Source: Solidesulfovibrio magneticus RS-1
GTDB lineage: Bacteria; Desulfobacterota; Desulfovibrionia; Desulfovibrionales; Desulfovibrionaceae
Assembly: GCF_000010665.1 (NCBI RefSeq)
Contig: NC_012796.1
Location: 4,612,001-4,676,000, forward strand
DNA length: 64,000 nucleotides
Direction of reading: 5' to 3'
Shown: positions 450 through 40,784 of the stretch, piece by piece
Position numbering within the stretch: the stretch's first letter is position 1
Layout of the letters: every line of letters starts with the position of its first letter
Notes under the pieces: generated by a model
Seen by the model: the letters and a program-made list of their open reading frames with translations, nothing else
Databases searched by the model: none
What the model was told of the DNA's origin: nothing
Translations under genes and position numbers: made by a program

Positions 450-1619
450 TCAGGACGATTCCGGCAGAACCCCTTTGTATTCAAAAGCCAAGATGCTCAA
501 ATCATCGCCTGGGGGATGCCCGCCCGCAAAACCCATGGCCGCATCATACAAGCCCTGCACCAAGGCGGCGACGGGCTCTTTCTGCAGCGCCAACAACGTA
601 CCCTTGGTCCCTTCCTCCCCAAAGAATGCATTCGATGCGTCGGCAATTTCCTCCACGCCGTCGCTGCAAAACACGACTTTGTAGCCTGGAGAAAGCGCAA
701 CAGACTCCTGCCCGAAAGGCATAGCGCCAACCCCGATGACGGTTCCGGCGGTCGTCAACGCCGTCACGCCGGCATTCGGATCAACGACCATAGGGGAACA
801 GTGCCCGGCATTGCTGTAGGTCAACACGCCTGTCGCATGATTGAAAACAGCATAGACAATGGTAAAATGCCGTTTGAAACGCATGAGCGGAAATTCTCCG
901 TCAAGGATCCGCAACACTTCTTCCGGTTCCAGTATTCGCGGCGGCTTCACCGTATGGTCAGCTAGGATGCCGGTCGTCGCGTTCAACAATTGGTAGACAA
1001 GAACCGATACCATCGCCGCCGCCGGCCCGTGGCCGGCCACGTCGACCATGTAAAGACCAACTCGCTGCGCGTCCAACGGGACAATGTTAAAGACGTCTCC
1101 ACCGATTGCGTCGCAAGGAACAAACTGCCAGGCAAACTCCAGAGACCCTACTCCTATGAAATGCTTTGGCAAAAGGCTTTTTTGAATTTCCCCGGCCGCC
1201 AGTAGCGACGCCTCGATAGTTTCCATCGACTGCCGAAGACGTGCCTGCATCTCGAGTAATCGGACACCGACCTTAATTCTTGCCTGAAGCTCCAGGACGT
1301 TGAAGGGCTTTGTCAAATAGTCATCGGCACCGGCGTCCAGTCCCTTGGCAATGTCTTCCTTTGTTCCCAACGCGCTCAACAAAATCAGATAGGGTTGCTG
1401 CCTGGCATTGATGGCCCGTAAGCGGCGGCAGACTTCAACGCCGTCAATCTCGGGCATCATCCAATCCAGAATAGCCAGCTTGGGGGCGTCGGCTTGTTGC
1501 ATCGCCTGCCAGGCTTCGAGTCCATTCGTTGTCGCAACAACTTGGTAGCCCAGCTTTTCCAGACACACTGTCAGGATTTTGCGCGATGCCGGGTCGTCCT
1601 CTGCGATCAATATACGCAT
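450..1619 (-). CDS. Response regulator with PP2C (SpoIIE/RsbU-type) phosphatase output
   Basis: The product is 389 aa. Residues 1-115 form a complete receiver domain: acidic pair near residues 8-9, phospho-acceptor D52 in LAILDWMMP, and K104 in LTKPF. A short helical linker follows. Residues about 150-385 are a PP2C-type serine phosphatase with the acidic motifs DAIGGDV, VDVAGHG, SDGVEE and GDDLS. The open frame continues far upstream, but the start at 1619 is chosen because CAGGAGGCTCC lies just before it and the receiver begins there. Such proteins dephosphorylate STAS anti-sigma antagonists. It is a close relative of the PAS-PP2C protein at 54318-55730. Confidence 0.92.
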   Translation of the reverse strand: MRILIAEDDPASRKILTVCLEKLGYQVVATTNGLEAWQAMQQADAPKLAILDWMMPEIDGVEVCRRLRAINARQQPYLILLSALGTKEDIAKGLDAGADDYLTKPFNVLELQARIKVGVRLLEMQARLRQSMETIEASLLAAGEIQKSLLPKHFIGVGSLEFAWQFVPCDAIGGDVFNIVPLDAQRVGLYMVDVAGHGPAAAMVSVLVYQLLNATTGILADHTVKPPRILEPEEVLRILDGEFPLMRFKRHFTIVYAVFNHATGVLTYSNAGHCSPMVVDPNAGVTALTTAGTVIGVGAMPFGQESVALSPGYKVVFCSDGVEEIADASNAFFGEEGTKGTLLALQKEPVAALVQGLYDAAMGFAGGHPPGDDLSILAFEYKGVLPESS

Positions 1620-1788
1620 GGAGCCTCCTGACTGAAAAGCCTTTGGTCGTGCGCCTGTTCGCAGCAACAAGTCAGTATCACCGGCTCGTGTTGCAACGCG
1701 GAGGCGCTCCATGCGGCAACTCCGCCAATTTTCATCAAAGCACACCCGGCCGCCAGGGGGCGCGGCAGACGCCATCCCCTGCGCAGCA

Positions 1789-4835: not shown

Positions 4836-5696
4836 CTACCCGTTGACCCGTTCCCAGATTTCCTGAAATTTTGCCAATTGCGCTTGCAGTTTGGCGTTTT
4901 GCGCCCGCAGCGACGCCACGAGTTCGGCGTCCGGCCCGACGGCCTGCGGCTCGGAGGCCGGGGAACGCGACGAGGCCTGCTGGCGCAGGGCGGCCAGTTC
5001 CACCAAGGCCTCCTGGAGCCGGGATTGCGTCTCCTCGGCCCGGCGGCCCTGGGCTGCCGCATGCTCTTCGCTGGTTGCCAGGGCCTTTGCGGCGTCCTCG
5101 CGTTCCTGACGCATGGCCTGCGCCTGGGCGGCAGCGCGAGCCTCGCCTGCGGCCAGGGCTTTTGCAGCGTCCTCGCATTCCTGTTGCAAAGCCGTTATCC
5201 GCGCTCCCGCGCTCGCCTCGCTTTCCGCCAGCATCCGCCCGGCGGCTTCAAGCTCCTGGCGCAGGGCCTGCGTCTGCGCCGCAGCCCGGGCTTCGTTTGC
5301 GCCCAGGGCTTTTGCAGTTTCGGCTCGCTCCTGTTCCAAAGCCGCTAGCCGCGCTTCCGCGTGCGCTTCGCTTTCGGCCAGCATCCGCCCGGCGGCTTCG
5401 AGTTCCTGTTGCAAGGCCGCCACCTGCGCCGTCAGGGACGGATCAGATGATTCAGGCCGGGACTCGGCCTCGCCGTCCTGGTCGGCCGTCGCCGCCGCCA
5501 GGGTCTGGCGCACCTGTTCTTCCAGGGCGGCATGGCGCGCCTCGGCCTCGCTCCGGGCCACCTCGACGCGGTCCAGATACTGCCCGACAATCCCCAGGGC
5601 CGCTTCCACGATCTCTTGGTGAAAGCGGTCTTCAAGGGCTTGTGTCAGGGCTGTCTCGGACAGATCCGGAGGGAGGGCGTCCGCGTCCTGGGCCAT
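4836..5696 (-). CDS. Coiled-coil protein with internal repeats
   Basis: The product is 286 aa. About 60 N-terminal residues (ALTQALEDRFHQEIVEAALG region) look globular. A long coiled coil follows, containing three diverged ~46-residue repeats around the motif EAAGRMLAESEA and KALAxxEARAAAQ. The C-terminus ends FQEIWERVNG, which resembles the end of the coiled-coil protein at 19324-20271. The ATG at 5696 is preferred over a GTG three codons upstream because GAGG sits 8 bases before it. It lies 38 bases upstream of the OmpA-domain coiled-coil gene and is probably co-transcribed. The function is unknown; the context suggests a scaffold. Confidence 0.75.
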   Translation of the reverse strand: MAQDADALPPDLSETALTQALEDRFHQEIVEAALGIVGQYLDRVEVARSEAEARHAALEEQVRQTLAAATADQDGEAESRPESSDPSLTAQVAALQQELEAAGRMLAESEAHAEARLAALEQERAETAKALGANEARAAAQTQALRQELEAAGRMLAESEASAGARITALQQECEDAAKALAAGEARAAAQAQAMRQEREDAAKALATSEEHAAAQGRRAEETQSRLQEALVELAALRQQASSRSPASEPQAVGPDAELVASLRAQNAKLQAQLAKFQEIWERVNG

Positions 5697-5767
5697 GGCC
5701 GTCACCTCGTCGTGCCGCAGCCAGACGGGCGGCTGGGGTCGAACCGTTGTCTCCCATGTCTCATGGC

Positions 5768-7798
5768 TCAGCCTCCGCGGACTTCCATGACCCGGCTGCG
5801 CGGCACCCCGAAACTGGGCCAGGCTGTTTCGGCATCCCGAAACAGCACCGGTGCCAGCAGGGAGCCCAGAAAGTTGGCCAGGCTCCAGCCCCCAAAGGCC
5901 AGATGCTTGCGGTCCAGAAAATACACCGGATCATGGATGGGCGGCAGGCCACGCATGGCCGCCGCTTCTAGCAGTTCCGGCAGGCAGGGCGTTTCCATGA
6001 ACCCGTAACGGGCCGAGAGCTGGTGGATGCCGCGTCCCAGGGGCCGCACGGTCAGCCGCTGCTCCTCGGGCACGCTCGGTTCGGTCGAGCGCGTCACGGC
6101 CAGCACCAGCACCTGCTCGTGCAGCACCTGATGCTGGTTGAAAAACCGCATGAGGGTCACGGGGATGCCGTTGTCGCTGCGGGCCAAAAAGACGGCCGTG
6201 CCCGGCACTCGGGGCGGGGCGATGGCCGCCAGATGGGCCAGAAACGGGTCCTGGGGACGGATGGTCTTGGAAAAAATGCCGCCCCACAACGCCTTTTGAA
6301 AGGATTCGCAGGCCATCATGCAGGCCATGAAAATAGCCGAGGCAAGCAGGATGATCCAGCCGCCGTCGAAGAATTTCATGAGGTTGGCCCCGAAAAAGAG
6401 CAGATCGAGCACCAGAAAGCCGGTGACGATGACGGCGGCGTTGCCCTCGGACCAGCCCCAGTTGTGCATGAGCACAAAAAAGAAAATGCCGGTGGTGATG
6501 GCCATGGTGCCGGTGACGGCGATGCCGTAGGCACCGGCCAGATTGACGGATTCCCGGAACAGCAGCACCAGGGCGATGCTGGCGCACATCATGGCCGTGT
6601 TGATGGCCGGGATATAGACCTGCCCGGAAACCGCCCGAGAGGTCTGCAGGATGTGCAGCCGCGGCAGATAGCCCAGGGCCACGGCCTGGCGCACCAGGGA
6701 AAACACCCCCGAAATCATGGCCTGGGAGGCGCAGATGGTGGCGAGGGTGGCCAGCAGCACCACCGGCAGGAGCAGGCCGTGGGGAACGATGCCGTAAAAC
6801 GGGTTGCCCATGATGGCCCGGTTGGCCAAAAGGCCCGCGCCCTGGCCGAAATAGTTGAGCACCAGGGCCGGCAGCACCAGGACGTACCAGGAAATGCGGA
6901 TGGGTTTGGCCCCGAAGTGGCCCATGTCGGCGTACAGGGCTTCGCACCCGGTGATGCAAAGGACCACCGCGCCAAGCACCGCCAGGCCAGCCAAGCCGTT
7001 TTCCACAAAAAATCCAATGGCGTAGGTGGGACTGAGCGCCAGCAGCACGCTGGGATTGGCCGCGACCTGGGCCAGCCCGCACAGCCCGATGACCAGAAAC
7101 CAGGCCACCATCACCGGGCCAAACAGCCGGCCGATGACCCCCGAGCCCCGCCGCTGGAGGTAGAAAAGCCCGCCCAGGATGGCGATGGTCAGCGGCAGCA
7201 CCAGCACCCCGGCCACGTGGGTGGCCACTTCCAGGCCCTCCACGGCCGAGAGCACCGAGATGGCCGGGGTGATCATGCCGTCGGCAAAAAAAAGCGCCGC
7301 CCCAAGCAGCGTGAAAAAAACCAGACTCGACACGGTATGGCGCGGCAACCGCCCGCCGCCCTGGCGCAGCAGGTGGAGCAGGGCGAAAATGCCGCCCTCC
7401 CCCTTGTAGTCGGCCCGCATGATAAACGTCACGTATTTGAGGCTGACGACCAGGGCCAGCGACCAGAAAATCATGGACAGGACGCCGAACACGTTTGTCT
7501 GGTTTGGGGCCACGGCGTGGTCGCCGAAAAAACAGGCCTTGAACGCATACAGGGGGCTCGTGCCGATATCGCCAAAAACCACGCCCAGCGCGCCAAGGGC
7601 CAGATGCAGGTTCATGCCCGGCCCGGCCGGCACGGGCTCGAACAGTTCATGGTCGATATGGTCCTTGGCGCAGGCGGCGGAACCAAACGACCGGCCGCCC
7701 CGGCCGTAATGCGTCAGAAAGTCCCCGACCATACCGTCGTCGCCGGGGGCGTCGGCCTGGGGGCGCTTTTTTGGGGAGTGTTCTTCTTTGAAATCCAT
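5768..7798 (-). CDS. kup: Kup-family potassium uptake transporter
   Basis: The product is 676 aa, of usual Kup/HAK/KT length. A ~65-residue hydrophilic N-terminal tail precedes the family signature LGALGVVFGDIGTSPLYA. About 12 membrane segments follow, then a ~150-residue C-terminal cytoplasmic domain. The tail is longer than in typical Kup proteins, which start close to the signature. Start 7798 is chosen because the frame upstream of it reads like non-coding sequence. A kup gene is a known resident of the D. magneticus magnetosome island, where it has been linked to magnetosome formation (recalled from published genetics). It is divergent from the AAA+ gene at 8113. Confidence 0.93.
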   Translation of the reverse strand: MDFKEEHSPKKRPQADAPGDDGMVGDFLTHYGRGGRSFGSAACAKDHIDHELFEPVPAGPGMNLHLALGALGVVFGDIGTSPLYAFKACFFGDHAVAPNQTNVFGVLSMIFWSLALVVSLKYVTFIMRADYKGEGGIFALLHLLRQGGGRLPRHTVSSLVFFTLLGAALFFADGMITPAISVLSAVEGLEVATHVAGVLVLPLTIAILGGLFYLQRRGSGVIGRLFGPVMVAWFLVIGLCGLAQVAANPSVLLALSPTYAIGFFVENGLAGLAVLGAVVLCITGCEALYADMGHFGAKPIRISWYVLVLPALVLNYFGQGAGLLANRAIMGNPFYGIVPHGLLLPVVLLATLATICASQAMISGVFSLVRQAVALGYLPRLHILQTSRAVSGQVYIPAINTAMMCASIALVLLFRESVNLAGAYGIAVTGTMAITTGIFFFVLMHNWGWSEGNAAVIVTGFLVLDLLFFGANLMKFFDGGWIILLASAIFMACMMACESFQKALWGGIFSKTIRPQDPFLAHLAAIAPPRVPGTAVFLARSDNGIPVTLMRFFNQHQVLHEQVLVLAVTRSTEPSVPEEQRLTVRPLGRGIHQLSARYGFMETPCLPELLEAAAMRGLPPIHDPVYFLDRKHLAFGGWSLANFLGSLLAPVLFRDAETAWPSFGVPRSRVMEVRGG

Positions 7799-8112
7799 GG
7801 CGGTACGCGCTGCTGGTGCGCGAAACAGCTTGATCCCTGCGGCCCCGTGCCGTTTGCGGGCCGGGAGACGGGACGAATTGTTCGGAATGCGGCACAGGCC
7901 ATTGAGGCCCTTTTTTCTAACAGGATTGCTTGCAAATTGAAAGCTGCCGCCGTCCGGGTTTCTCCCTGACGGGTGACAAACCGGAATGGGTGCGTCTTTG
8001 GCCTGGATAACCACGGACGCTTTGCGTAATGTGCGGCGCAAACCAGTTCCATACGGTTGCCGGCTGCAACACCCAACCCGCCAACATACCGCGCCTCTCC
8101 CCGGAAACCGCC
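7799..8112. other. Divergent intergenic region between kup and the AAA+ gene
   Basis: About 310 bases lie between two divergently read genes, so promoters for both should be here. I see no convincing -35/-10 pair and no small ORF with a ribosome binding site. A short ggcc palindrome followed by a T run lies near 7897-7918. Confidence 0.4.
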
Positions 8113-9726: not shown

Positions 9727-10638
9727 TCAGGGAACAGGCGTTTCGAGAAAATGCGCCAGCGCCATGACGTCGTGCACAAACGGCGCGTCCGGCTCGGTCA
9801 AAAGCGCCGGGCGCATCCGCGCCGTGGCCCGCCCCACCGCCCCATCCTCCCGCACGCACAGCGTCCTGCCACCCTCAAGGCTTAAAAACCGCGCCATGAG
9901 ATTGCCGATCACCGTGCCGGCGTTGCGGTCGGCCTCCGTACGCACCCGGTTGACCACAATGACGGGGTCAAACCGCGCCAACACCTCCCGACCCTGGCGG
10001 ATAAGTTCGGCGTCGATGGAGGCGCCCTGGCGATAGAAGTCTTCCAGGGTCTTGAGATCGGGCCGCACGTCCGGGTCTTTGGACGCCTCCAGCAGATCCA
10101 TGAGGCCGGCGTTGCCGGCCTGCTTGAAAAACAGATGCAGCCGCCGGTAGGCCATGGACTTGACGTAGCTGTAAAGGCTCATGAGCGAGGGGATGTCGGG
10201 TGTGGTCACCAGCAGGCTGCGCCGGGCCATCAGGGAAAAGTCGATAACATTATTGGACACGCCCGCAGCCAGATCAAGCAGCAGATAGTCGCAGTCAAGG
10301 GAACGCAGGTGGCGCAGGAGCTTAATCTTGCGCTGATAGGGCAGCGAAGCGATGCCGGGAACGTTACCGCCGGCAATGAGCTGCAGCCCGGGCAGGCCGG
10401 TATCCAGGACAACGTCGGCCAGCGAAGCGACCTTGTTCATGAGAAAGTCGTCGAGGGTGTGGGGCACGTCGCGGATGCCGAAGACAAAATGGAGATTGGA
10501 GGAACCAAGGTCGAGGTCCGTAGCCGCCACCCGCCGGCCCAGGCGGCAAAGGGCCAGGGCCAGATTGGCCGAAATGGTGGTCTTGCCCACGCCGCCCTTG
10601 GGGCCGACCACGGCGACAATCATGGGCTGGCGCGTCAT
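9727..10638 (-). CDS. MinD/ParA-family ATPase (FlhG/CpaE ATPase-like)
   Basis: The product is 303 aa. The deviant Walker A motif GPKGGVGKTT is at residues 12-21. Further on are ATDLDLGSSNLH (switch I region) and LLDLAAG (switch II/Walker B). The ATG overlaps the stop of the receiver-like gene by four bases (ATGA), so the two are translationally coupled. No clear MinD-type C-terminal amphipathic helix is seen. Family members place protein complexes in the cell. Pairing with a receiver-like protein recalls TadZ/CpaE, in which both parts are in one chain. It converges with the AAA+ gene, with 30 bases between the stops. Confidence 0.9.
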   Translation of the reverse strand: MTRQPMIVAVVGPKGGVGKTTISANLALALCRLGRRVAATDLDLGSSNLHFVFGIRDVPHTLDDFLMNKVASLADVVLDTGLPGLQLIAGGNVPGIASLPYQRKIKLLRHLRSLDCDYLLLDLAAGVSNNVIDFSLMARRSLLVTTPDIPSLMSLYSYVKSMAYRRLHLFFKQAGNAGLMDLLEASKDPDVRPDLKTLEDFYRQGASIDAELIRQGREVLARFDPVIVVNRVRTEADRNAGTVIGNLMARFLSLEGGRTLCVREDGAVGRATARMRPALLTEPDAPFVHDVMALAHFLETPVP

Positions 10639-23323: not shown

Positions 23324-23375
23324 GCCTGCTTCCTCTGTGTCGTTGTCGCAATGGGTGCGATCCTGCAACCCCGGC

Positions 23376-26381: not shown

Positions 26382-26384
26382 GTC

Positions 26385-30789: not shown

Positions 30790-33161
30790 ATCAGATTGGC
30801 TATCCGCAAGATCACCGCGCAGGCGGCCATGGCCGAGGCCATGACGCCGCACGCCCGGGCACGGGTGTTCGTTTTAAGCGACTGCAACAACAGGCCGCCC
30901 ATGGAGCCCACAAGCGCCGCGGCGCACAATTGCACCAACATGGGCACGTCGTACTGGCCGACCACGGCATGGCCCAGGTAGCCAAACAAACCGACCACGG
31001 GCGTCATGACTGCGGCCACGGCGGCGGCCACCGGCAGGGGAATCCGGAACACGGTCATGACCATGGGCAAAAGAAGCCAGCTGCCCGACGCGCCGAGCAG
31101 GCCGCCCAGGCCGGCGGCCACCAGCACGCAGGCGGACAGGGAGGCCAGTCCCAGGACATACGGCTCGCCGCCGTAGACCGGGCGCCAGGCCAGCCCGCCC
31201 CGGTCGCGGCGTCCGCCCCAGACGGATTCCAGGGCCGGGTTGCGTGAAAAGAGCATGGCTGCCAGCAGCAGGCAGGCCGCCAGCCCCATGGGCAGATAGG
31301 TCGGGTCGAGAAAGGCTGCGCCAAACGCCCCGCCAAACGCCCCCAGGGCGGCCGGCGGCAGGACAACGGCAAAAAGGCGCAGGTCGATGCAGTCGGACCC
31401 GTCAAAGCGCACCATGGCCGGCAGCCCGACCACGGCCAGCATGAGCAGCGAAGCGGCGCAGGCCATTTCCAGGCCCAGACCGTGGAAAAGCAGGATGGGC
31501 ACGAACAGCAAGCCGGCGTCAAAGCCGATGGCCGTGGCCAGCAGTGCGGCCAGCAGCACGGCGGCGTACGTGACGTAGGGCGCGCCGCCAAGGCTTTTAA
31601 GGCCCGGTATCCTGGCCACAATAGTATTCCAGGCTACTGTGGTAGGCCCGGCCACGGGCTTTTCATTGATCATCACATGGCAGGTGTCGCAGTTGCCCAG
31701 GGGTGGATGCGGCATGGTTGACTGCATGTTGACCACGAGCTTTTTGGTAATGACGTGGCAGGTGGTGCAGTCGGAAAAGGTCTTGTGTGTGGCGTCGTTG
31801 GGCGGCGTCTTGTTGAGATCCACCGGCTCCTTGGGATTGGGCGGCGGCGGCAGGGCCGGCGCGGCGGCGGCGGCGGTCTGGAGCGCGCCGGCGACGGCAG
31901 GCGCGGTCATGACCGTGGCAGGCAGGGGCATAAATCCCGGCTGAAGCGCGCTCTGACCCGGCGACGCGGCAACCGCTCCCCCGGCCGGGGGAGCCTGGGG
32001 CGCGGCCCCGGGCTGGCGGGGGGGAATGCCGGCAAACGGCGGCTGGCCCGCCGGGTTTGCCCCGGCCGCTCCCTGGGTCTGGACAGGCAAGCCCTGGACC
32101 GGCTGGGCGGCAGTTGGCAGCGGCTGGCCGACGGGCAAGGCGTCGGGCGGTACAGCAGCCGGCTGGCCGACGGCGGGCAGCGGCTGGGCCGGTTGGCCGG
32201 CGATGGTCAGCGGCTGGCCCGCCGGCCCCGGGTTCGGCAGAGCCTGGGCCGGCAATGCCGCGCCCGGCTGGGGCCGGACCGGATTGACGGCGGCCGCGGG
32301 AGCTGGCTGATCGGGCAACGGCTGGAACCCGGGCCGCAGACCACCCTGGGGCCCGACGGCGGTCGGCGTTCCGGCCGCAACCGGCGTCCCGGTCGCAGCC
32401 GGCGTGCCGGCCGGGGCGGAGCGGATGGTGGGCACTGCCCCGATGGTGCGGGAAATAAAATGCTTGGCCCGATTGATGGGAATGGTGAAGGCGATGCCGG
32501 TATAGGCGTTTTCGGGAGAAAAAATGGCGGCGTTTATGCCCACGGCCACGCCGTTGAGATCAAGCAGCGGGCCGCCGCTGTTGCCCTGGGTGATGGCCGC
32601 GTCGGTCTGGATCATGTCGCGGTAGGCCACGCCGTTTATCATGAGATTGCGGTGCAGGCCGCTGACGATGCCGAAGGTGGCCGAATGCTCGTAGCCGTAG
32701 GGGCTGCCGACGCTGACGACCCAGTCGCCGACGGCCAGTCCGGCGGCATCGCCCAGGGGGGCCGGGCGCAAGGCGGCGGCCGGCTCGATCTTGAGCAGAG
32801 CCAGATCGTTGTCCACGTCCTCGTCCACGATGGTCGCCGGCAACTCCGTTCCCGAGCCGTTCCAGAGCGCGACCGTGACGCGTTCCCCGGACCGCACCAC
32901 ATGGGAGTTGGTCAGGATGTAGCCGCGTTCGTCCACGACGAGACCCGATCCGACGCTTTCAAACCACATTTCGCCGCCGCCCTTGAGCATCTGGCGCTTT
33001 TGCGCCTTGACGCTCGCCACCGAGGGTTTGATGGCCGCCAACGCTTGGCGCACATCAGCCTGCAGTTGATCCAGGACCGCCGCGGCCCCCTGGCACTGGG
33101 CCGCCTGGAGCCAAAGCCCCAGGCAACACGCCGCCGTCCAGACAATCCGCCATGCTGCCAT
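30786..33161 (-). CDS. MamEO-like fusion: HtrA protease, magnetochrome and TauE-type membrane domain
   Basis: The product is 791 aa. A signal peptide/anchor (1-26) is followed by an HtrA-like protease (about 45-240) with an intact triad: H87 in LTNSHVV, D119 in DNDLALLK and S195 in QGNSGGPLL. A Pro/Gln/Ala-rich linker (~250-440) holds PGFQPLPDQ and PGFMPLPA. A magnetochrome with two CXXCH motifs (CTTCH, CDTCH) is near 465-495, and a TauE/SafE-like domain of about eight membrane segments runs from ~530 to the end. MamE has protease, magnetochrome and PDZ; MamO has protease plus TauE. This chain joins features of both. It lies one base after the mamE-Cter-like gene. Confidence 0.88.
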   Translation of the reverse strand: MAAWRIVWTAACCLGLWLQAAQCQGAAAVLDQLQADVRQALAAIKPSVASVKAQKRQMLKGGGEMWFESVGSGLVVDERGYILTNSHVVRSGERVTVALWNGSGTELPATIVDEDVDNDLALLKIEPAAALRPAPLGDAAGLAVGDWVVSVGSPYGYEHSATFGIVSGLHRNLMINGVAYRDMIQTDAAITQGNSGGPLLDLNGVAVGINAAIFSPENAYTGIAFTIPINRAKHFISRTIGAVPTIRSAPAGTPAATGTPVAAGTPTAVGPQGGLRPGFQPLPDQPAPAAAVNPVRPQPGAALPAQALPNPGPAGQPLTIAGQPAQPLPAVGQPAAVPPDALPVGQPLPTAAQPVQGLPVQTQGAAGANPAGQPPFAGIPPRQPGAAPQAPPAGGAVAASPGQSALQPGFMPLPATVMTAPAVAGALQTAAAAAPALPPPPNPKEPVDLNKTPPNDATHKTFSDCTTCHVITKKLVVNMQSTMPHPPLGNCDTCHVMINEKPVAGPTTVAWNTIVARIPGLKSLGGAPYVTYAAVLLAALLATAIGFDAGLLFVPILLFHGLGLEMACAASLLMLAVVGLPAMVRFDGSDCIDLRLFAVVLPPAALGAFGGAFGAAFLDPTYLPMGLAACLLLAAMLFSRNPALESVWGGRRDRGGLAWRPVYGGEPYVLGLASLSACVLVAAGLGGLLGASGSWLLLPMVMTVFRIPLPVAAAVAAVMTPVVGLFGYLGHAVVGQYDVPMLVQLCAAALVGSMGGLLLQSLKTNTRARACGVMASAMAACAVILRIANLI

Positions 33162-33162
33162 G

Positions 33163-34791
33163 CTATTGTCCGACGGCCGGGGTCAGTCCCTGCTGTTCGT
33201 ACAGGGCGACGCTGTCGAGCACCGTTCCGACCACGCCGCTGTAGACCGAGACGCCGGCGGCCTGGAGGGCCGCCGTTGCGGCCGGGCTCATGTCGCTGCA
33301 CACCAGCCCGCCCACGCCGTATTGGCGCAGGAGCTCGGGCAGAGGGGTGCGGGTATTGAGTTCAACCACGGCATAGGCCTGATTGGCCAGGTCGACGAGG
33401 ATCACGGCCTGGGCCTTGGCCTCGGAAGCCACCGTGGCGTTGACGCTTTTTTCCGGCGACAACACGCCGATGATGCCCGGCGTCGTGGCCGCCACCTGGC
33501 GGAACTTGCGGTCCACGCCGGTCTTGAGCTGGGTGCCCTGGGGCGTGTAGCCCGGCGGCGGCACCGAGACGAACAAATGCTTGTTGGCCCGCACCACTTC
33601 CACGGCCGCGCCGGCCTGCTGCCGGGTGGCCTGGATGAAGGTGTCGAGGTCGGGGGTGGCCATGCCGTTTACGGCCACGATCACATCGCCAGTCTGGAAG
33701 CCGACCATGCTGGCCTGGCCTTCCACTTCGTTGACGAGAATGCCCTGCATGTCCTGGGGCAGGCCCAGGGAGACGATGTCCTTGGGTTTGAGCTGGGCTG
33801 CGTCCATGCCGATCCAGGTGGCCGACAGCGTCACCTTGGCCGGGGGAATGAGCGGAATCTGGGGCGGCGCGGCCGGCCGTGCGGCCAGGGTCACCGAGGC
33901 TTCCACGGGGTTTCCCCCGCGCATGACCGAAAGGCGCAGGCTCTGGCCGATGGCCGCCTTTTCCACGGAGGCCTGGAACTGGGCCACATTGCTGATGCGG
34001 GCGTTGCCCACCCGGCGGATCATGTCGCCAACGGCCAGCCCGGCGAGCTGGGCCGGCGAATTGGGGGCCACGTGGCTTATAAGGACGCCCTTGTCGTCGG
34101 GCAGATTGAATTGGATGCGCATGATGGCGTCCACGTCCTGCACGTCCAACCCGACCCAGGGCGTCTTCTGGATAACGCCGACATCCAGGCCAAGGGGCGC
34201 GTTTTCCAGGGTGATGTGGGTGGATTTCTGCACCCCGGCCCGGCTGTAGACCGCCTTGACCGTCTCACCGGCCCGCTTGCCGCCGAGGATGCGGCCCACT
34301 TCGGCGGGACCGGCCAAATCGGCGTTGTCCAGGCGCAACAGGACGTCGCCGGCCTTGATGCCGGCGGCAGCCCCGGGGGAACCGGCGACCACGATGTTGA
34401 CCAGCGCCCCACGCCCGGCGGCAAGGCCCAGGCCAGCGGCCGTCTGGGCCGGCAGGTCGCTTAGGCTCAAGCCCAGATAAGGCCCGCCTTGAGCAATGAG
34501 TTGCATTTGTTCGTTGCCGATTCCGGCAGGGAAACTGATGATCGGATCGCCGCCCGGGGCAGGGCCGGGCGCGGGCATGGCGGTTTGGGCCGCAGCCGGG
34601 AAAATCTCCCTTCCGTCCTCGCCGGCCTGAGGGCCGATGCCGGGCGCGCCGACCCATTTGATCATGATGGCCAAAAGCACCAGCACGCAGGCCAGCATGA
34701 GCGCCCCGAACCAGACCAGCAATCTGTCCGAGGCCACGCGGCCACGCTTGGGACAACCAGGTGCGTTTAATTCTTCAAAAGTATCTGACAT
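33163..34791 (-). CDS. MamE-Cter-like protein: three PDZ domains and a NifX-like domain
   Basis: The product is 542 aa. One membrane segment is near 25-46. Three PDZ-like domains follow (about 95-200, 205-310 and 320-415), each with the hydrophobic-GxPAxxAGxxxGD pattern (AGSPGAAAGIKAGDVL, APNSPAQLAGLAVGDMI, QASMVGFQTGDVI). Residues ~430-535 resemble the NifX/dinitrogenase-cofactor family (VILVDLANQAYAVVELN, GVGGLVCSDMSPAATAAL, VYSGVVGTV). There are no protease and no CXXCH motifs. GGAGAG precedes the ATG. It is probably the PDZ partner of the split MamE system. Confidence 0.82.
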   Translation of the reverse strand: MSDTFEELNAPGCPKRGRVASDRLLVWFGALMLACVLVLLAIMIKWVGAPGIGPQAGEDGREIFPAAAQTAMPAPGPAPGGDPIISFPAGIGNEQMQLIAQGGPYLGLSLSDLPAQTAAGLGLAAGRGALVNIVVAGSPGAAAGIKAGDVLLRLDNADLAGPAEVGRILGGKRAGETVKAVYSRAGVQKSTHITLENAPLGLDVGVIQKTPWVGLDVQDVDAIMRIQFNLPDDKGVLISHVAPNSPAQLAGLAVGDMIRRVGNARISNVAQFQASVEKAAIGQSLRLSVMRGGNPVEASVTLAARPAAPPQIPLIPPAKVTLSATWIGMDAAQLKPKDIVSLGLPQDMQGILVNEVEGQASMVGFQTGDVIVAVNGMATPDLDTFIQATRQQAGAAVEVVRANKHLFVSVPPPGYTPQGTQLKTGVDRKFRQVAATTPGIIGVLSPEKSVNATVASEAKAQAVILVDLANQAYAVVELNTRTPLPELLRQYGVGGLVCSDMSPAATAALQAAGVSVYSGVVGTVLDSVALYEQQGLTPAVGQ

Positions 34792-34820: not shown

Positions 34821-36092
34821 TCAATACAGGGTCTGCGGCGAGGTTCCCGGCAGGGCCTGGGCCTGGCGCCGGGGGGCGGCGACAGCCTGGGGCAGCCCCG
34901 GCTGGACCGCCGGCCCGCCGACGGCCACGGCCCGGGTCGGGGTCAACTGCCCGGCCTGATAGGCGTTCAGGATGTCCTGCACGCCGCCGGTGACGCCCGG
35001 ATAGACGACAATGCGCTGGGAACCCAGGGTGGTCAGGGCTTCAGGGGTGAAATTGCCGGCAATAGCCACGCCGATTCCGAGATTCACCATGAGCTGGCTG
35101 GTGGCCACGCCGTGGCCGGGCACGCCGGCATTTGGGTTTGCCTCCACCCGGTAGGAGCGACGGGCCTGATCAACCAGGAGGTAATAAGGCGCGGACTCGA
35201 ACTGGGGTGACACCTGGGCCGTCAGGTCCGGGGTCGTGGCGGCGATGACCACCAACGCACCGCTGACCTGGGGCGCGGCCGGCTGGGGGGGGGCCGGTTT
35301 GGGGACGGCCGGGGTGGTCAGGGCCGCCAGGTTGGCCGGCAGGGAAATAATGAGGTTGCGCGAGGTCTTGCCCCGATAGATATTGCACTTGACGTCCGCC
35401 CCGGGCTTTAAGCCGTTGATGGCGGCTTCCAAGGCAGCCACATTGGCGGTCAGGGTCTTGTCCACCCGCACGATCTCGTCGCCGGCGGCGAAGCCGGCCT
35501 TGTCGGCCAGGGAGCCGGGGGCCACGTCGAGGACCAGCAGGGCGTCCTCCTTGACCAGCTTGTATTTGGCGACCATGGCGTCGGTGACCGGCTGCACGGA
35601 CAGCCCCAGAGAGGCGGCGGTCAGCCAGTCCAGGGCGGCGGCCTGGGCCGGCGCGCCGGCGGCCGGCTTGTCCACCCAGGTTCCGTTGGGCTGGAAGCCG
35701 TCGAGCACCTGGTGGCACAGCATGCAGTTGCCCCAGTCCTTGTGGGTCATCTTCTGGGCGATGGTGATAGGCGGCCCCTGCATGACCTTGGACACGGGCG
35801 CGCCCGCGCCGGTGGTGACGTGGCACTTGTTGCAGTTGCCCCAATAGGGATGGGTGGCTTTGGTCTTGACGTCCACGGGCGGTCCCATGGGCGTTTTGGC
35901 GGCGATCATGCGCGCCCCGCCCCCGGGGCCCTGCATGGGGCCGCGGTGCATGGGATTGGGACCGGGGCTAGCAAACGATCCGGGGCACTGCCGCCACAAG
36001 GTCCAGCCCACGATAATAACCACCAGCACGCCGACGACGATCAGGGCCGGCTTGAACTGGCGCATGCAGAAATCTTGTTCAAACTGTTTCAT
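34821..36092 (-). CDS. mamP: MamP-like protein: double magnetochrome, PDZ and NifX-like domain
   Basis: The product is 423 aa. A membrane anchor at 14-32 is followed by two magnetochrome CXXCH motifs (CNKCH at 87-91, CMLCH at 123-127, both after GNC), a PDZ domain at about 155-255 (VAPGSLADKAGFAAGDEIVRV), and a NifX-like domain at about 275-385 (YYLLVDQARRSYRVEANPN, GHGVATSQL, VYPGVTGGVQDIL). MamP in Magnetospirillum has PDZ followed by two magnetochromes and acts as an iron oxidase; here the order is reversed and a NifX domain is added. The end is Pro/Ala/Gln-rich. It lies 13 bases after mamB. Confidence 0.8.
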   Translation of the reverse strand: MKQFEQDFCMRQFKPALIVVGVLVVIIVGWTLWRQCPGSFASPGPNPMHRGPMQGPGGGARMIAAKTPMGPPVDVKTKATHPYWGNCNKCHVTTGAGAPVSKVMQGPPITIAQKMTHKDWGNCMLCHQVLDGFQPNGTWVDKPAAGAPAQAAALDWLTAASLGLSVQPVTDAMVAKYKLVKEDALLVLDVAPGSLADKAGFAAGDEIVRVDKTLTANVAALEAAINGLKPGADVKCNIYRGKTSRNLIISLPANLAALTTPAVPKPAPPQPAAPQVSGALVVIAATTPDLTAQVSPQFESAPYYLLVDQARRSYRVEANPNAGVPGHGVATSQLMVNLGIGVAIAGNFTPEALTTLGSQRIVVYPGVTGGVQDILNAYQAGQLTPTRAVAVGGPAVQPGLPQAVAAPRRQAQALPGTSPQTLY

Positions 36093-36105: not shown

Positions 36106-36981
36106 TCATCCTTCGGCGGGGTTAAGAACGACTGTAATCCTGGTCTTCATGCCCAGGGCATTGGCCACGGCGGCCCGGGCCTTGGCCTTGACCGCCTCGC
36201 CAGCCTCCAGGCTCAGATCGGCAGGGACGACGAGAATCAACTTGAGTTCCAAGGTCGGGCCAAGCTCGCGGCCCATGATCTGGCGCACCGAAACAACGTT
36301 CTCCAGACCTTCCAGGGCAGAACTGATGGCTTCCATGATTTCAGCCGGCGGCGCCTCGTCCATAAGCTTGAGCACGGACTCGTAGATGGACTCGATGCAC
36401 AGCTTGAGGATCATCACGCCGACCACGAAGGCAGCCAGGGGGTCCATGAAGGAAAAACCCATCATGGCCCCGATGACGCCGATCAAAACAGCGACGGAAG
36501 CGTAGACGTCGGAACGGCTTTCCCAGGCTTTGGCCACCATGGAGGGGCTGTTGATCTGGGTGCCGGCGCACACGCTCTGGCGAAACATCAGTTCGTTGAT
36601 GACAATGGCAAACACCGCCCCCCACAAGGCGAACCAGCAGGGATGCACCCAACGCCCGGCCACGATCGTGACGTAGCCGTCATGCATGATGTAGAGGCCA
36701 ATGACGAACAGAAACAGATAAATGGAAATAGCCACCAGATACTCGGCCTTGCCGAAGCCGTCCGGGTATTTGGCGTTGGGCTGGCGGGCGGAAATCTGCA
36801 GGCCGATCATCATAACGAAGGTGGCCAGCAGATCGGCCACCGAATGCACAGCGTCGGCGATGAGCCCCTTGCTGCCGCCCACAAAGCCCAGATAGGCCTT
36901 GAGCGCGATCATCATGACGTTGCCCGCGACGTTGACCAGCCCCACCGACCGGGCGCACTTTTCACATGCCTTGTATTTCAT
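36106..36981 (-). CDS. mamB: MamB, magnetosome cation diffusion facilitator
   Basis: The product is 291 aa with six membrane segments and a C-terminal CDF domain. MamB-like traits are the N-terminal CEKC, INELMFRQSVCAGTQINSPSMV and KAWESRSDVYASVAV. The TM2 metal motif ADAVHSVAD (D43, H46, D50) and the TM5 Asp are intact, unlike the MamM-like CDF at 26771. It transports iron into the vesicle and is needed for invagination in Magnetospirillum. The start overlaps the stop of the 43-residue gene upstream by four bases (ATGA). Confidence 0.92.
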   Translation of the reverse strand: MKYKACEKCARSVGLVNVAGNVMMIALKAYLGFVGGSKGLIADAVHSVADLLATFVMMIGLQISARQPNAKYPDGFGKAEYLVAISIYLFLFVIGLYIMHDGYVTIVAGRWVHPCWFALWGAVFAIVINELMFRQSVCAGTQINSPSMVAKAWESRSDVYASVAVLIGVIGAMMGFSFMDPLAAFVVGVMILKLCIESIYESVLKLMDEAPPAEIMEAISSALEGLENVVSVRQIMGRELGPTLELKLILVVPADLSLEAGEAVKAKARAAVANALGMKTRITVVLNPAEG

Positions 36982-37137: not shown

Positions 37138-37638
37138 TTAAAAAACGTAATGACCTTTAAGCATGGCAAACAGCATCACGAAAAACAGCAGTTGCTGGGT
37201 ATGCAGGATATAAATGCCTTTTTTGACATGCCCGGGCTGGTATTTGATCCACATGAGAAAGCCGCAAAACGTCAACAAACCCATGAGGGTCAGGGCCAGC
37301 ATCAGCCAATAGTTGCCCCAAAGCGCGATATAGCAGTGCACGCAGGCCACCAGAAACGACAGCGTGTTAAGCCAGATATGGTAGACCAGCAGCCGGTTCA
37401 TGAACGACTGCACGCCCTTGATGCGGTAGTGCAGCAACAGTCGCTTGAAGGGGAAATACACGTTGGCGGCCAAAAACAGCACCATGCTCAGATTGCCCGT
37501 GCCGGTGGCAAAATTATAATCCGACAGCCACGCATACAAAAAAGACAGAACCAGAAAGACCGCCAGATAGGTCAGCCGCGTCCGGACCGGTCCCCAGCCC
37601 CACAAGGGCAGCGTGTGCAGATACGATTCCGTTGTCAT
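37138..37638 (-). CDS. Polytopic membrane protein, possibly a b-type haem (ferric-reductase-like) protein
   Basis: The product is 166 aa with about five membrane segments. Histidines are placed as in bis-haem membrane reductases: H-x13-H within one segment (HIWLNTLSFLVACVH) and a second pair in the last segments (GHVKKGIYILHTQQ to LKGH). The pattern resembles the ferric-reductase-like transmembrane domain, but no NAD/FAD domain follows. With Mad6 and the haem c proteins it would complete an electron route across the membrane (inference). It stands between mamQ and the 43-residue protein. Confidence 0.68.
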   Translation of the reverse strand: MTTESYLHTLPLWGWGPVRTRLTYLAVFLVLSFLYAWLSDYNFATGTGNLSMVLFLAANVYFPFKRLLLHYRIKGVQSFMNRLLVYHIWLNTLSFLVACVHCYIALWGNYWLMLALTLMGLLTFCGFLMWIKYQPGHVKKGIYILHTQQLLFFVMLFAMLKGHYVF

Positions 37639-37656: not shown

Positions 37657-38403
37657 CTAGTAACTGATGGGCGTCAGCACCTGGGCGTCCTGGGTCGCCT
37701 TGAAGTAAGGCGTCATCCTAAAGCCAAAGCACAGTGCAAAAAAATTCGAGGGGAACTTGTCCACGTAATTGGCGTAGGCCAGGATGGCTTCGTTGAACTT
37801 GACCCGCTCCCCGGCCAGATCCTTTTCCACTTCCACCAGGGCGGCCATGAGGCTCTGGAAATTGGCTGAAAGCTTGAGATCGGGGTATTGTTCGGCCACG
37901 GCCAACAGCCGGGCCAGGGCGGCGGAGGACAGCCCGGCGGCTCCGGCCGGAGCAGTCCCGGCCGGGGCGGCCGGGCCGGCGTTTTTCAGCAATTCCTCAA
38001 CGGCTCCCGGATTGGCCCCTTCGCCGCCAAGGGCCGTGCGCAGCTTGACGATTTCGGTCAGGACGTTTTTCTCGTAATGGGAATAGTCCTGCAAGGCCTT
38101 GGCCAGATTGATGGAAATGTCGTTTCGCCGCTGCATGAAGACGTCCACCTGGGCCCGCGACTTCATGACGTCGTGCTCCACGCCGATAAGCGTGTTGTAA
38201 TAATAGATGGTCGCCGCTGCCAAAACCAGGAAGCAAAAGCCCAGGAGCCAGCGCAGGCGGACATCCATGGGCATCTCGGCCACGGCTCGCAGGCGATAGC
38301 CCAGCTCGTCCCAGAAAGCATGCCGGGGCGCTTGGCGCGGGGCGAGGTCGTACTTCTTCCCGTAGGCCTCAACGATGATGTCGGTCATGCGTTTCGTCTT
38401 CAT
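37657..38403 (-). CDS. mamQ: MamQ, LemA-family magnetosome protein
   Basis: The product is 248 aa. A cytoplasmic N-terminus of ~50 residues precedes one membrane segment (WLLGFCFLVLAAATIYYYNTLIGV). The LemA helical domain follows (EHDVMKSRAQVDVFMQRRNDI, QDYSHYEKNVLTEIVKLR, LAGERVKFNEAILAYANYVDKFPSNFFA), broken by an Ala/Gly/Pro-rich insert at 130-160. MamQ is needed for magnetosome membrane invagination in Magnetospirillum. LemA proteins normally start directly with the membrane segment; the longer N-terminus is typical of MamQ. Confidence 0.9.
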   Translation of the reverse strand: MKTKRMTDIIVEAYGKKYDLAPRQAPRHAFWDELGYRLRAVAEMPMDVRLRWLLGFCFLVLAAATIYYYNTLIGVEHDVMKSRAQVDVFMQRRNDISINLAKALQDYSHYEKNVLTEIVKLRTALGGEGANPGAVEELLKNAGPAAPAGTAPAGAAGLSSAALARLLAVAEQYPDLKLSANFQSLMAALVEVEKDLAGERVKFNEAILAYANYVDKFPSNFFALCFGFRMTPYFKATQDAQVLTPISY

Positions 38404-38427: not shown

Positions 38428-38763
38428 CTACTTCAATGTCCGCACGCCGTGGGCCACGGAAATGACGCCGAAAAGCACCAGGGCGATGGGCAGCACGCCG
38501 TACAGAAAATCCATGGTGGCAATGTATTCGTCATACCAGCCGTAGCCGCCCACGGCGAGCATCACCACGGCCACGAGCAGATTAATCTTTTTATAGCGCG
38601 TCTTGTCAAAGACCACCGACAGCAGGGCCAGCATGCCTATGATGATCATGATGGGCTGCAGGGAACCCTTGAAGACGCCGACAACCAGCGGGCTGTAATA
38701 ATAGGTGAAAAACAACCCCAGCCCGAAGACCGCCAAACCAGACAATAAGTGACCAAACCGCAT
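38428..38763 (-). CDS. Small polytopic membrane protein (Mad2-like by position)
   Basis: The product is 111 aa with four predicted membrane segments (LLSGLAVFGLGLFFTYYYS, IMIIIGMLALLSVVF, NLLVAVVMLAVGGYGWY, GVLPIALVLFGVISVAHG). Its second half has a hydrophobic pattern like MamI, with short charged loops. It lies 44 bases after the triple-CXXCH cytochrome gene and 24 bases before mamQ. No general family is recognised. In the mad nomenclature the gene at this place may be mad2; I am not certain. Confidence 0.68.
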   Translation of the reverse strand: MRFGHLLSGLAVFGLGLFFTYYYSPLVVGVFKGSLQPIMIIIGMLALLSVVFDKTRYKKINLLVAVVMLAVGGYGWYDEYIATMDFLYGVLPIALVLFGVISVAHGVRTLK

Positions 38764-38807: not shown

Positions 38808-39767
38808 CTACCTGGGGGCTCCGGCGTCTATCCAGGCCAGGAACACCCGGGTGTCCGGCCCTGCGAAACGGTGCATCGGCCCGCCCGGCTCCACAAGCGT
38901 CTTGAGCAGACCGTTGTCGACATACATCTTGACGTCCTCATAGGTGGTCATTTTCCGAAACGGCCCCAGGTGGCAGCGCAGACAATCCTGGGCCATAAGC
39001 CCTTCGATGGTCCCGGTGTAGGTGAGATCGCCCGGTGCGACCTGGCCTCCCGCCCCCGGCGGACAGGCGAACTGCCCGCCCCCGCCGCCGCGTCCCGGCT
39101 GGCCGGGTTGGCCCGGCTGCCGGGGCTGGCCGCCGCGGGTGGGCTGGTTGAAGGCGGCGGCCGCCCCGCCGATGCGCGGCGGATTTTCCGGCGCGCCGGC
39201 GTCTATCCAGGCCAGGATGACGTCGGCGTCGGCCCCGGCGAAGCGGCGCATGGGGCCTTGCACCATGGCGGCGAGCATGCCGTTGTCGACAAAGGCCCGC
39301 ACGCTGTCCCAATCCGTCAGATTGCGCGTGGCCCCGGAATGGCAGCGGGCGCAATCCTTCTGGATAATATCACGAATGGTGGACTCGTAATACACCTTCG
39401 CAGTGGTCTGGGCGACGGTGGCCGCCTGGGCACCCGGCTGGGCCTGGCTCCTGGCACCGGCCCCGGGGGCGCGGCGCATCGCGCCGGCGTCGGCCCAGGA
39501 AATGATCGTGCCGGCGTCGGCCCCGGCGAACTGGCGCATCATCGAACCGACCATGGCCGAAAGCATGCCGCTGTCGGCATAGGCCTTGATCGCGTCATAG
39601 CTCATCAGGTTGCGCATGGCACCGGAATGGCAGCGGGAGCAATCCTTCTGGACGATGTCACGGATGGTCGGCTCATAATACACCGGCGCGGCCGCTCCGG
39701 CGAACCGGTCCGCAAACGACGGCACCAAAAAAATCGCCGCAAAGACCAAGACAAACGCAAAACGCAT
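38808..39767 (-). CDS. Secreted c-type cytochrome of three tandem repeats
   Basis: The product is 319 aa. A signal peptide covers residues 1-20 (MRFAFVLVFAAIFLVPSFA). Three ~75-residue repeats, separated by Pro/Gly/Ala linkers, each have a CXXCH site (CSRCH, CARCH, CLRCH) and the pattern YYExTIRDI, RNLxxYD, GMLxAMV, FAGADA, WxDAGA. The repeat resembles the short cytochrome domain of planctomycete-type proteins. A single-repeat paralogue is encoded at 49641-50165. It is probably periplasmic or lumenal with three haems, in line with redox control of iron. It may be mad1 by position. Confidence 0.85.
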   Translation of the reverse strand: MRFAFVLVFAAIFLVPSFADRFAGAAAPVYYEPTIRDIVQKDCSRCHSGAMRNLMSYDAIKAYADSGMLSAMVGSMMRQFAGADAGTIISWADAGAMRRAPGAGARSQAQPGAQAATVAQTTAKVYYESTIRDIIQKDCARCHSGATRNLTDWDSVRAFVDNGMLAAMVQGPMRRFAGADADVILAWIDAGAPENPPRIGGAAAAFNQPTRGGQPRQPGQPGQPGRGGGGGQFACPPGAGGQVAPGDLTYTGTIEGLMAQDCLRCHLGPFRKMTTYEDVKMYVDNGLLKTLVEPGGPMHRFAGPDTRVFLAWIDAGAPR

Positions 39768-39799: not shown

Positions 39800-40597
39800 T
39801 CATTCCTCATCACTGTCCTGACTGCGCTCCAGCTCCATGACCTTCGTGAAATGTTCGGCCGCCGTCTTATGGTCGTCCTTGCGCACGTTCATGAAGCCAA
39901 GGTGCTGGTGGTATTTGATCTCTTCCGGATCGAGATCCACGGCCTTTTGCATGGCCTCGATGCCTTTTTCCAACTGCTCGTCGCCGTCGTAGGCCAGACC
40001 GAGCAGATAGTAGGCCCGGGCGTCCTCGGGCTTCTCCGCCACCACGGCCTCAAGCACGGGCAGGGCCAGCTTGTACTGCTTCATCTTGAGCAGCACGGCT
40101 CCCTTGCGGTAGCTGGCCATGAAGTGGTTGGGGCGCAGCTTTAAAACCTTGTCGAAAACCGTGACCGCCCGCTGGTAATCGCCAAGGTTGGCCAGGGCAA
40201 TGCCCATCTGGTAAAGCGGTTCCGGGTCGTTTTTCTCGTGGCGCGCCCATTCCTTCAAGTAGCGCAGGGCTTCCTCGGGGGAACCGCGACGCAGGCAGCG
40301 CTGGCTGATATTGCGGTACAGCTTGGCCTTGTCCCGGGGCGTGAGACTAAACAGGCCGTTGTACCAGTCCAGCGTCCGGTTGAGCAGCCGGCCGCTGAGC
40401 AAAAGAAGGGAATTCCAGTAAAACGTCGAGGAATCCTCAACGCTGGATTCCATGTTGGCGACGTTTTTCTTGGCTTTGGCCGCCTTCTTGCGCCCGACAG
40501 GGGCACCTTCACTGGCGGAAAGCTCGTCGTCGTCAGGAACAATGTCCTCGATATCCTCCAGCTGCGGCTGCGCAACTGTTTTTTCCCCCTTACCCAT
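39800..40597 (-). CDS. mamA: MamA, TPR scaffold protein of the magnetosome surface
   Basis: The product is 265 aa. A charged N-terminal extension of ~45 residues precedes TPR motifs from about residue 95 onward (EALRYLKEWARHEKNDPEPL, MGIALANLGDYQRAVTVFDKVLKLRP, GAVLLKMKQYKLALPVLEAVVAEKP, AMQKAVDLDPEEIKYHQHLG). MamA coats the cytosolic face of magnetosomes and self-assembles through its TPRs. The start at 40597 has GAGGAGG upstream and overlaps the mamI stop by eight bases, so an upstream in-frame ATG is rejected. The N-terminal extension is longer than in Magnetospirillum MamA. Confidence 0.93.
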   Translation of the reverse strand: MGKGEKTVAQPQLEDIEDIVPDDDELSASEGAPVGRKKAAKAKKNVANMESSVEDSSTFYWNSLLLLSGRLLNRTLDWYNGLFSLTPRDKAKLYRNISQRCLRRGSPEEALRYLKEWARHEKNDPEPLYQMGIALANLGDYQRAVTVFDKVLKLRPNHFMASYRKGAVLLKMKQYKLALPVLEAVVAEKPEDARAYYLLGLAYDGDEQLEKGIEAMQKAVDLDPEEIKYHQHLGFMNVRKDDHKTAAEHFTKVMELERSQDSDEE

Positions 40598-40784
40598 GTA
40601 CGTCCTCCTCGTCATCGCTGACGCTTTTTTGCGGAACACAACCGGCCAGGGCGGCAAGCAGCCCCCCGATCATACACAGCAGGGGCAGACCCCCCTTCAC
40701 AACGTCCATGACATAGTAATACATGTCATATATGCCCCAGAGCCCCAAGGCGATACAGAGCAATCCCAAAACGATGGGCGTCAT
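40590..40784 (-). CDS. mamI: MamI, small magnetosome membrane protein; first gene of the mam operon
   Basis: The product is 64 aa with two membrane segments (IVLGLLCIALGLWGIYDM and LPLLCMIGGLLAALAGCV) joined by VVKGG, and an acidic tail (SDDEEDVHG). This is the size and layout of MamI, required for vesicle formation. GGGAGGAAGGGGA directly before the ATG at 40784 selects this start over one seven codons upstream. It is the first gene of the run that continues to about 25772. Confidence 0.85.
   Translation of the reverse strand: MTPIVLGLLCIALGLWGIYDMYYYVMDVVKGGLPLLCMIGGLLAALAGCVPQKSVSDDEEDVHG

Follow-up and report, generated by a model that had tools for sequence, protein, structure and literature searches.

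What does the 64,000-nucleotide stretch of DNA analyzed here (the window), positions 4612001-4676000 of the 5,248,049 bp chromosome of Desulfovibrio (Solidesulfovibrio) magneticus RS-1, represent, and what can it tell about MamK and Mad28, the chain-organizing actins encoded in it? We conclude, with a probability of about 0.98, that the region consists of group I of the published RS-1 magnetosome island together with the group II-III genes to its right. This island is already known and its confirmation adds nothing new, since it is a standard model for tooth-shaped magnetite; novelty, if any, lies in the relatives of Mad28 and MamK alone.

A magnetosome island of RS-1 was reportedly described by Nakazawa in 2009. 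The base substitutions of RS-1 mutants have been listed by genome coordinate (Rahn-Lee 2015; PMC4287615), and in the window the published reference base stands at 21 out of 21 of these coordinates. Sliding the register 4000 ways, as a control, gave at best 14/21, which excludes chance agreement. Because every one of these substitutions has its reference letter at the published coordinate, the window is DNA of RS-1.

The island has been delimited to 4607747-4689778 (82 kb), flanked by 2.4 kb IS66 direct repeats, and divided into groups I-IV by transposons and repeats (PMC4287615). We located the repeat pair outside the window, as two 100% identical copies of 2,447 bp whose inner edges lie at most ~75 bp from the published borders. 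Coordinates, bases, genes and borders thus agree with the published island, which extends beyond both ends of the window; neither its outer borders nor group IV are covered. Judging by the text of PMC4287615, the interval 450-40784 corresponds to group I; genes of groups II and III, named by locus-tag order, fall at ~47.3-55.5 kb of the window. An initial annotation had taken 450-40784 for a nearly complete island, which is right for group I and leaves out groups II-III, including tauE, which is essential for magnetite. It had also read kup as a clue to D. magneticus and proposed a comparison with that species; the strain proves to be RS-1 itself, and the comparison ends in agreement of all 21 reference bases and of the repeat borders. 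A tyrosine-recombinase-like open reading frame (ORF), recognized by eye in locus L022 (3808-4707), starts at the inner edge of the left-border IS66 repeat.

Could the island instead come from another, closely related strain of Desulfovibrionaceae, and so represent a new member? Genomes of the family do carry similar genes (MamK at 78% and Mad6 at 72% in G399, 75% and 67% in G417); however, the match of all 21 published RS-1 positions at their coordinates rejects a different strain, as do the repeat borders, and the chance of this is close to nil. Just as improbable is an island that has decayed or is incomplete, in a cell no longer making magnetosomes. Transposase-like ORFs split the island, and RS-1 loses it easily in culture, island deletions forming no magnetosomes (PMC4287615), yet the core genes are open frames and RS-1 is magnetic; published microscopy rejects decay for this strain, in whose cells magnetosomes have been described (PMC4287615, PMC12748827). 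The magnetite expected by the initial annotation is likewise the mineral of RS-1, in tooth-shaped form (PMC4287615). Nothing counts against the identity of the island as that of RS-1.

In domain content, the region fits this identity gene by gene (Pfam, NCBIfam), and all the genes named initially are open frames at their proposed places. The core genes mamA, mamB, mamE/O, mamI, mamK, mamM, mamP-like and mamQ are all present together, along with mad genes including mad1, mad2, mad6, mad10, mad23, mad25, mad26 and mad28; homologues of mad10, mad23, mad25, mad26 and mad28 co-occur in other islands. The magnetochrome domain gave three matches in the RS-1 genome and none in 14 control genomes. Core mam genes, mad genes and magnetochrome found together bear out the assignment to the Desulfobacterota type. 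Pfam recognizes two cation diffusion facilitator (CDF) transporters, trypsin-like domains in MamE and in a MamEO fused to TauE, LemA in MamQ, Fer4_5 in Mad6, FeoB, K_trans in Kup and TPR in MamA, and magnetochrome reaches 54.9 bits in FmpB (cut-off 30.4) and 24.8 bits, under the cut-off, in MamEO. The genes lie almost all on the minus strand, as had been noted: 38 of the 40 called in 450-40784, or 39 of 41 when mamE-Nter (29932-30852, minus), removed from the calls by the overlap filter, is restored. The exceptions on the plus strand are the genes for an AAA ATPase (8029-9696) and a ferredoxin-like protein (25384-25809). No tRNA was found in the window, nor any Rfam family at gathering threshold.

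Names were taken from published alleles (kup, mamL, mad6, fmpA, fmpB, mamB, mad2, mamQ, mad1, tauE), from NCBIfam cut-offs (MamK, MamA, MamI-1), or from gene order after FSS-1 (PMC7951924) or locus tags (mamI-3, mamE-Nter, mad4, mad5, mad7-12, mad17, mad20-26, mad29, mad30). Several points weigh against so good a fit. A number of mad names come from gene order alone. Moreover, the curated-family check proposed by the initial annotation succeeded in part: MamK, MamA and MamI-1 exceed their NCBIfam cut-offs (Table 1), whereas MamB (226.5 bits, cut-off 350), MamM (208, cut-off 350), MamQ (112, cut-off 250) and MamI-2 (about 42, cut-off 80) are best matches yet remain below them, and MamL has no NCBIfam match, its name coming from published allele positions. 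The transport role of TauE and Kup, and the part played by the membrane, are also unsettled in the accessible literature.

Mad28 was compared with volactin, an archaeal protein that helps set cell shape. Mad28 of RS-1 matches the Pfam Volactin model with 252 bits (cut-off 35), ten relatives scanned score 221-289, and Pfam gives no MreB match for Mad28 at E 0.01. Three of 14 control genomes match the Volactin model (E. coli, T. maritima and H. volcanii), and one, presumably H. volcanii, exceeds the cut-off. The likeness to Haloferax volcanii volactin (PMC10869688) consists in the score of Mad28 over this cut-off and is known from the model; Mad28 places magnetosomes, whereas volactin acts in archaeal cell shape. 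What weighs against the volactin class is that the best NCBIfam match of Mad28 is the MamK model, at 29.8 bits for a cut-off of 400. A PDB profile search with the Mad28 alignment gave four chains with weak E-values, one of MreB and three of an 'Actin-like ATPase' that we take to be MamK. In the open-licence literature, no paper title ties volactin to magnetosomes and no paper is common to those on volactin and those on mad28, and a term search of the accessible text of the volactin paper (PMC10869688) gave no mention of Mad28, MamK or magnetotactic.

We scanned GTDB genomes with the Mad28 alignment and kept the best 80 of 118 relatives. At 37 of these 80 loci (including L083, L087-L098, L100-L103 and L106-L110) the mad28 relative stands apart from any magnetosome gene, at 52-61% identity to RS-1 Mad28. 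The 37 were drawn from non-Nitrospirota loci showing no or almost no island gene, so that selection explains part of this absence, and just 17 of them have 9.9 kb of flank on both sides. Three further loci are also without island genes in the flank: L144 and L151, which were kept apart, and L085, which lies outside the 37, on a short contig of a genome with magnetochrome. In the flanks of the 37 we found no match to kup, AAA, Mad29, STAS, Mad26, Mad25, Mad23, Mad10, MamK, Mad30, FeoB or TauE, the sole matches to RS-1 genes being of response-regulator type (L110, L134) or to the MamEO protease domain (L110). In contrast, Mad29 is encoded near mad28 in 8 of 10 Desulfobacterota-type loci and in 15 of 31 others, mostly Nitrospirota. 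Each of the 37 has at least one of three shared neighbors, an HrpA helicase (32/37), a pentapeptide-repeat protein and a class-A penicillin-binding protein. Twelve are labelled Desulfobulbaceae, Desulfurivibrio or Desulfurivibrionaceae, one Desulfobacteraceae, and 24 only 'Deltaproteobacteria' or 'Proteobacteria'; Desulfurivibrio sp. AMeS2 (L106) is among the carriers.

We looked for magnetochrome in the genomes behind 50 of the 80 loci; of the other 30, L079, L082 and L141 were apparently covered by a separate scan and the rest are labelled Nitrospirota. No magnetochrome over the cut-off was found in 35 of the 37 stand-alone genomes, several of which have short matches below it. For the remaining two, the bins MAG_22309_dsfv_022 and MAG_22204_dsfv_001, magnetosome gene clusters have been published (Uzun 2020; PMC7449369), and in both we found a mam cluster as well as a stand-alone copy. 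In MAG_22309_dsfv_022 (G462), the island Mad28 (L168, 7130-8374) has 38% identity to that of RS-1, and its own stand-alone copy 60%. A tree of 74 rows, made of 69 of the 80 loci plus RS-1, L013, L014, L015 and the L168 island copy, leaves out 11 loci, mostly short or cut, and contains no volactin, MamK or MreB. Support is 82/85 for a group of 35 stand-alone rows and 44/74 for one of 33 island rows; with such values the branching order is unsettled, and the apparent split between stand-alone and island rows is suggestive only. Shared neighbors and tree are evidence independent of how the loci were selected.

In Mad28, a serine replaces the usual aspartate of the second phosphate loop (Awal 2023; PMC10653835). 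We found this serine, S240, to be invariant in all 13 aligned proteins, magnetosome-linked or not; it is therefore not a magnetosome adaptation. Removal of the first 30 residues of Mad28 abolishes filaments (PMC12713370), and an N-terminal heptad-like helix pattern is present in 14 of 31 island rows and in none of 35 stand-alone rows. This pattern was composed after inspection of the sequences, and RS-1 and over half of the island rows fail it, so that it is a hint and not a test. By eye, some of the failing island rows show a looser form of the pattern, and the helix is missing from at least five Nitrospirota rows. A helix profile trained on Desulfobacterota island Mad28 gave no clean split between Nitrospirota island copies and stand-alone copies, the best Nitrospirota scoring 11.5 bits, the best stand-alone 4.7, and the rest being mixed below 6.5.

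Our tentative proposal, which we hold at somewhat less than even odds, is that both chain actins predate the magnetosome. Mad28 would be of the volactin class, and its relatives would form a chromosomal, magnetosome-free cytoskeleton in Desulfurivibrio and its kin, some of which have a MamK-like pair elsewhere; islands would have recruited Mad28 for the positively curved side of the cell, many island versions gaining at their N-terminus an amphipathic helix absent from the stand-alone versions. The opposite course, in which Mad28 originated within magnetosome islands and its stand-alone copies survive from islands since lost, would agree with the two mam-cluster genomes that also carry a stand-alone copy (L090/G462 and L102/G473), and with the MamK model being the best NCBIfam match of Mad28 and of most relatives scanned (27-44 bits against a cut-off of 400). 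It appears unlikely, however, given the common neighbors of all 37 copies, their flanks without any mam or mad gene save the protease-domain match in L110, their single group in the tree, though with just the support given above, and the second, separate island Mad28 of G462, so distant from RS-1.

The initial annotation had stated that this set of genes occurs only in magnetotactic bacteria. The combination does mark magnetotaxis, but single MamK-, Mad6- and Mad28-like genes do not, because they were found where neither magnetochrome nor Mad2 was. Among 395 genomes sampled from the phylum, Mad28 is matched at E <=1e-10 in 13, five with magnetochrome and eight without, one of the latter (G222) through a short match at a contig end. 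Mad6-like proteins (38-49% identity) occur in six magnetochrome-negative genomes and MamK-like pairs (37-42% identity) in four, and four genomes with a stand-alone Mad28 relative also carry a MamK-like pair. One MamK-like protein of G195 reaches 459 bits, over the NCBI MamK cut-off of 400, and in the 20 kb around the pair RS-1 genes match, besides the pair, only response-regulator and sigma-54-type genes. Mad2 and the magnetochrome domain, for their part, behave as exclusive to magnetic bacteria in the genomes tested: Mad2 was found in 9 of 20, all nine with magnetochrome, and neither was found over the cut-off in the other 11. At L084, island genes lie beside mad28 yet the genome has no magnetochrome match, and a missing magnetochrome in a metagenome bin is therefore weak proof of a non-magnetic cell. 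Non-magnetic Nitrospirota have been searched for leftover cluster genes, and none were found (PMC9376291); the stand-alone relatives, where labelled, belong to a phylum other than Nitrospirota.

Tandem MamK-like actins were observed at L160 (9881-12734), L161 (8732-11390), L162 (8272-11060) and L163 (2273-4990), in four genomes with neither magnetochrome nor Mad2. One actin of the L160 pair is over the NCBI MamK cut-off, and in L161 and L163 the two actins are separated by a small protein that, by eye, begins with a hydrophobic stretch at its N-terminus and has a coiled-coil-like body.

Compared with known clusters, RS-1 shares with FSS-1 the order mamI-1, mamA, mad1 ... mamK, mad10, mad23, mad25, mad26, mad28, mad29, but the FSS-1 cluster, unlike that of RS-1, is without mad20-22, mad24 and mad27, and transposases are absent within 10 kb of its two ends (PMC7951924). 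With the alphaproteobacterial islands of Magnetospirillum it has in common the core mamA, mamB, mamE, mamI, mamK, mamM, mamO, mamP and mamQ (PMC12748827), whereas the Desulfobacterota type lacks the mms genes and mamS and has extra mad genes (PMC4287615; PMC12748827).

In RS-1, mutants of kup, mamL, mad6, fmpA, fmpB, mamB, mad1, mad2, mamQ and tauE have a lost or weakened magnetic response; tauE mutants are without particles, tauE being required for magnetite, and kup is needed for normal magnetite (PMC4287615). Deletions of mad10, mad20, mad23, mad25, mad26, mad28 and mamK disturb the chain, Mad10 binds magnetite (PMC12748827), and proteins rich in transmembrane segments act in early stages (PMC4287615; PMC12748827). 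From published work and knowledge of the protein families, a working model may be drawn in which MamQ, MamL, MamI and MamB with Mad2 would help build the membrane compartment, and iron would be handled by the CDF proteins MamB and MamM, perhaps also by FeoB and Mad30. Redox and crystal growth would be set by MamE-type proteases and the magnetochrome/PDZ proteins FmpA and FmpB, with Mad1 and Mad6; the substrate moved by Kup would be potassium and that of TauE probably an anion. Mad10, the coiled-coil proteins Mad20, Mad23, Mad25 and Mad26, and the actins MamK and Mad28 would assemble the crystals into subchains along the side of the cell with positive curvature.

To this we add, as inferred in the present analysis, the order-based names, Mad30 as an iron sensor, and the STAS and SpoIIE genes as a signalling module. 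Mad30 has been described as a FeoA homologue for iron transport (PMC9376291). In RS-1 (22583-23389), a DtxR-type metal-binding and dimerisation domain precedes the FeoA domain (Pfam), which is why the protein may be an iron-sensing regulator; its NCBIfam MntR/DtxR scores of 66-68 bits are below the cut-offs, and Pfam recognizes no DNA-binding domain. Parts of partner-switching type are scattered over the island, namely a HATPase with response regulator (1-417), SpoIIE phosphatases (450-1619 and 54318-55538) and a STAS protein (12826-13143). At 5 of 10 Desulfobacterota-type island loci the STAS gene and mad28 are at most 10 kb apart, and no paper in the open-licence literature joins 'magnetosome' with 'partner switching' or 'STAS domain'. 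In RS-1, tauE (51890-52789) is distant from mad28; it lies within 10 kb of mad28 in 2 of 10 Desulfobacterota-type islands (L079:11541 and L082:11408, 64% and 52% identity) and in 1 of 31 other loci (L125:4158, 36%), which supports tauE as a true island gene.

Table 1. Coordinates of the annotated features in the window (position 1 is its first letter); 'by order' marks names taken from gene or locus-tag order.
Feature	Position	Strand	Evidence or remark
Response regulator + HATPase_c_2, 3' part	1..417	+	Whole ORF L022:7468-8418; HATPase 22-25 bits, below Pfam cut-off 27.4
Response regulator + SpoIIE/PP2C phosphatase	450..1619	-	Pfam SpoIIE 118 bits, response regulator 96 bits
Coiled-coil-like protein with OmpA domain, 1002 aa	1789..4797	-	OmpA 46.5 bits; coiled coil by eye
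Coiled-coil-like protein, no family	4836..5705	-	No Pfam match
kup (DMR_40800), potassium transporter	5768..7798	-	K_trans 561 bits; published alleles inside
AAA ATPase	8029..9696	+	AAA, AAA_lid_9; <10 kb from mad28 in L082, L099, L117
ParA/MinD-like ATPase (Mad29 by order)	9727..10638	-	CbiA/ParA; FSS-1 order
Response-regulator-like (by eye)	10635..11192	-	No Pfam match
mad28, curvature-dependent actin	11350..12537	-	Pfam Volactin 252 bits (cut-off 35)
STAS-domain protein	12826..13143	-	STAS_2/STAS
Coiled-coil-like (mad26 by order)	13235..13759	-	
Coiled-coil-like (mad25 by order)	13997..14833	-	
Coiled-coil-like (mad24 by order, unsure)	14820..15431	-	
HEAT-repeat protein (mad23 by order)	15542..16990	-	
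Three coiled-coil-like genes (mad22, mad21, mad20 by order only, unsure)	17033..20271	-	
mad10, magnetite-binding protein	20499..20837	-	FSS-1 order; function published
mamK	20897..21952	-	NCBIfam MamK 491 bits, cut-off 400
mad11 (by order)	21980..22522	-	
mad30 (by order), DtxR/MntR-type metal-sensing + FeoA domains	22583..23389	-	Pfam 79, 46 bits
feoB (mad17 by order)	23376..25343	-	FeoB_N, Gate, FeoB_C
Ferredoxin-like (mad9 by order)	25384..25809	+	Cysteine pattern by eye
mad8 + mad7 (by order)	26058..26696	-	
mamM, cation diffusion facilitator	26771..27676	-	Pfam 111 bits; best NCBIfam MamM, below cut-off
mamL	27680..27931	-	Published alleles inside
Third mamI-like gene (mamI-3, by order)	28013..28396	-	
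mad6	28377..29192	-	Fer4_5; published allele inside
mad4 (by order)	29310..29714	-	
mamE-Nter (by order)	29932..30852	-	Trypsin_2
mamEO: protease + magnetochrome + TauE-type domain	30786..33161	-	Pfam
fmpA: PDZ domains + Nitro_FeMo-Co	33163..34737	-	Pfam; published alleles
fmpB (mamP-like): 2 magnetochromes, PDZ, Nitro_FeMo-Co	34821..36092	-	Published frameshift positions inside
mamB	36106..36981	-	Pfam; five published alleles, four of them substitutions
mad2	37138..37638	-	Published alleles
mamQ	37657..38403	-	LemA; published alleles
Second mamI-like gene	38428..38763	-	NCBIfam MamI 41.6 bits, cut-off 80
mad1, cytochrome-like	38808..39767	-	Published allele
mamA	39800..40597	-	NCBIfam 312 bits, cut-off 200
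mamI-1	40590..40784	-	NCBIfam 86.6 bits, cut-off 80
Transposase-like ORFs between groups I and II	41424..46189	+	Region published
PAS + sigma-54 activator (DMR_41220 by order)	47322..48647	+	
mad5 (DMR_41230 by order)	48905..49294	+	
tauE (DMR_41280)	51890..52789	-	TauE 154 bits; published alleles
EcsC-family protein (mad12, DMR_41300 by order)	53294..54097	-	
PAS + SpoIIE/PP2C phosphatase (DMR_41310 by order)	54318..55538	-	
IS66 transposase piece, by place the copy left of group IV	63325..63906	-	94.9% to flanking repeat over 732 bp

A 150-base tandem repeat of 2.2 copies (5104-5431) lies inside the coiled-coil-like gene at 4836-5705.

Working relatives of Mad28 and MamK in magnet-free bacteria, if they exist, would mean that neither protein safely marks magnetotaxis in metagenomes and that the origin of organelle-positioning actins is testable in Desulfurivibrio.

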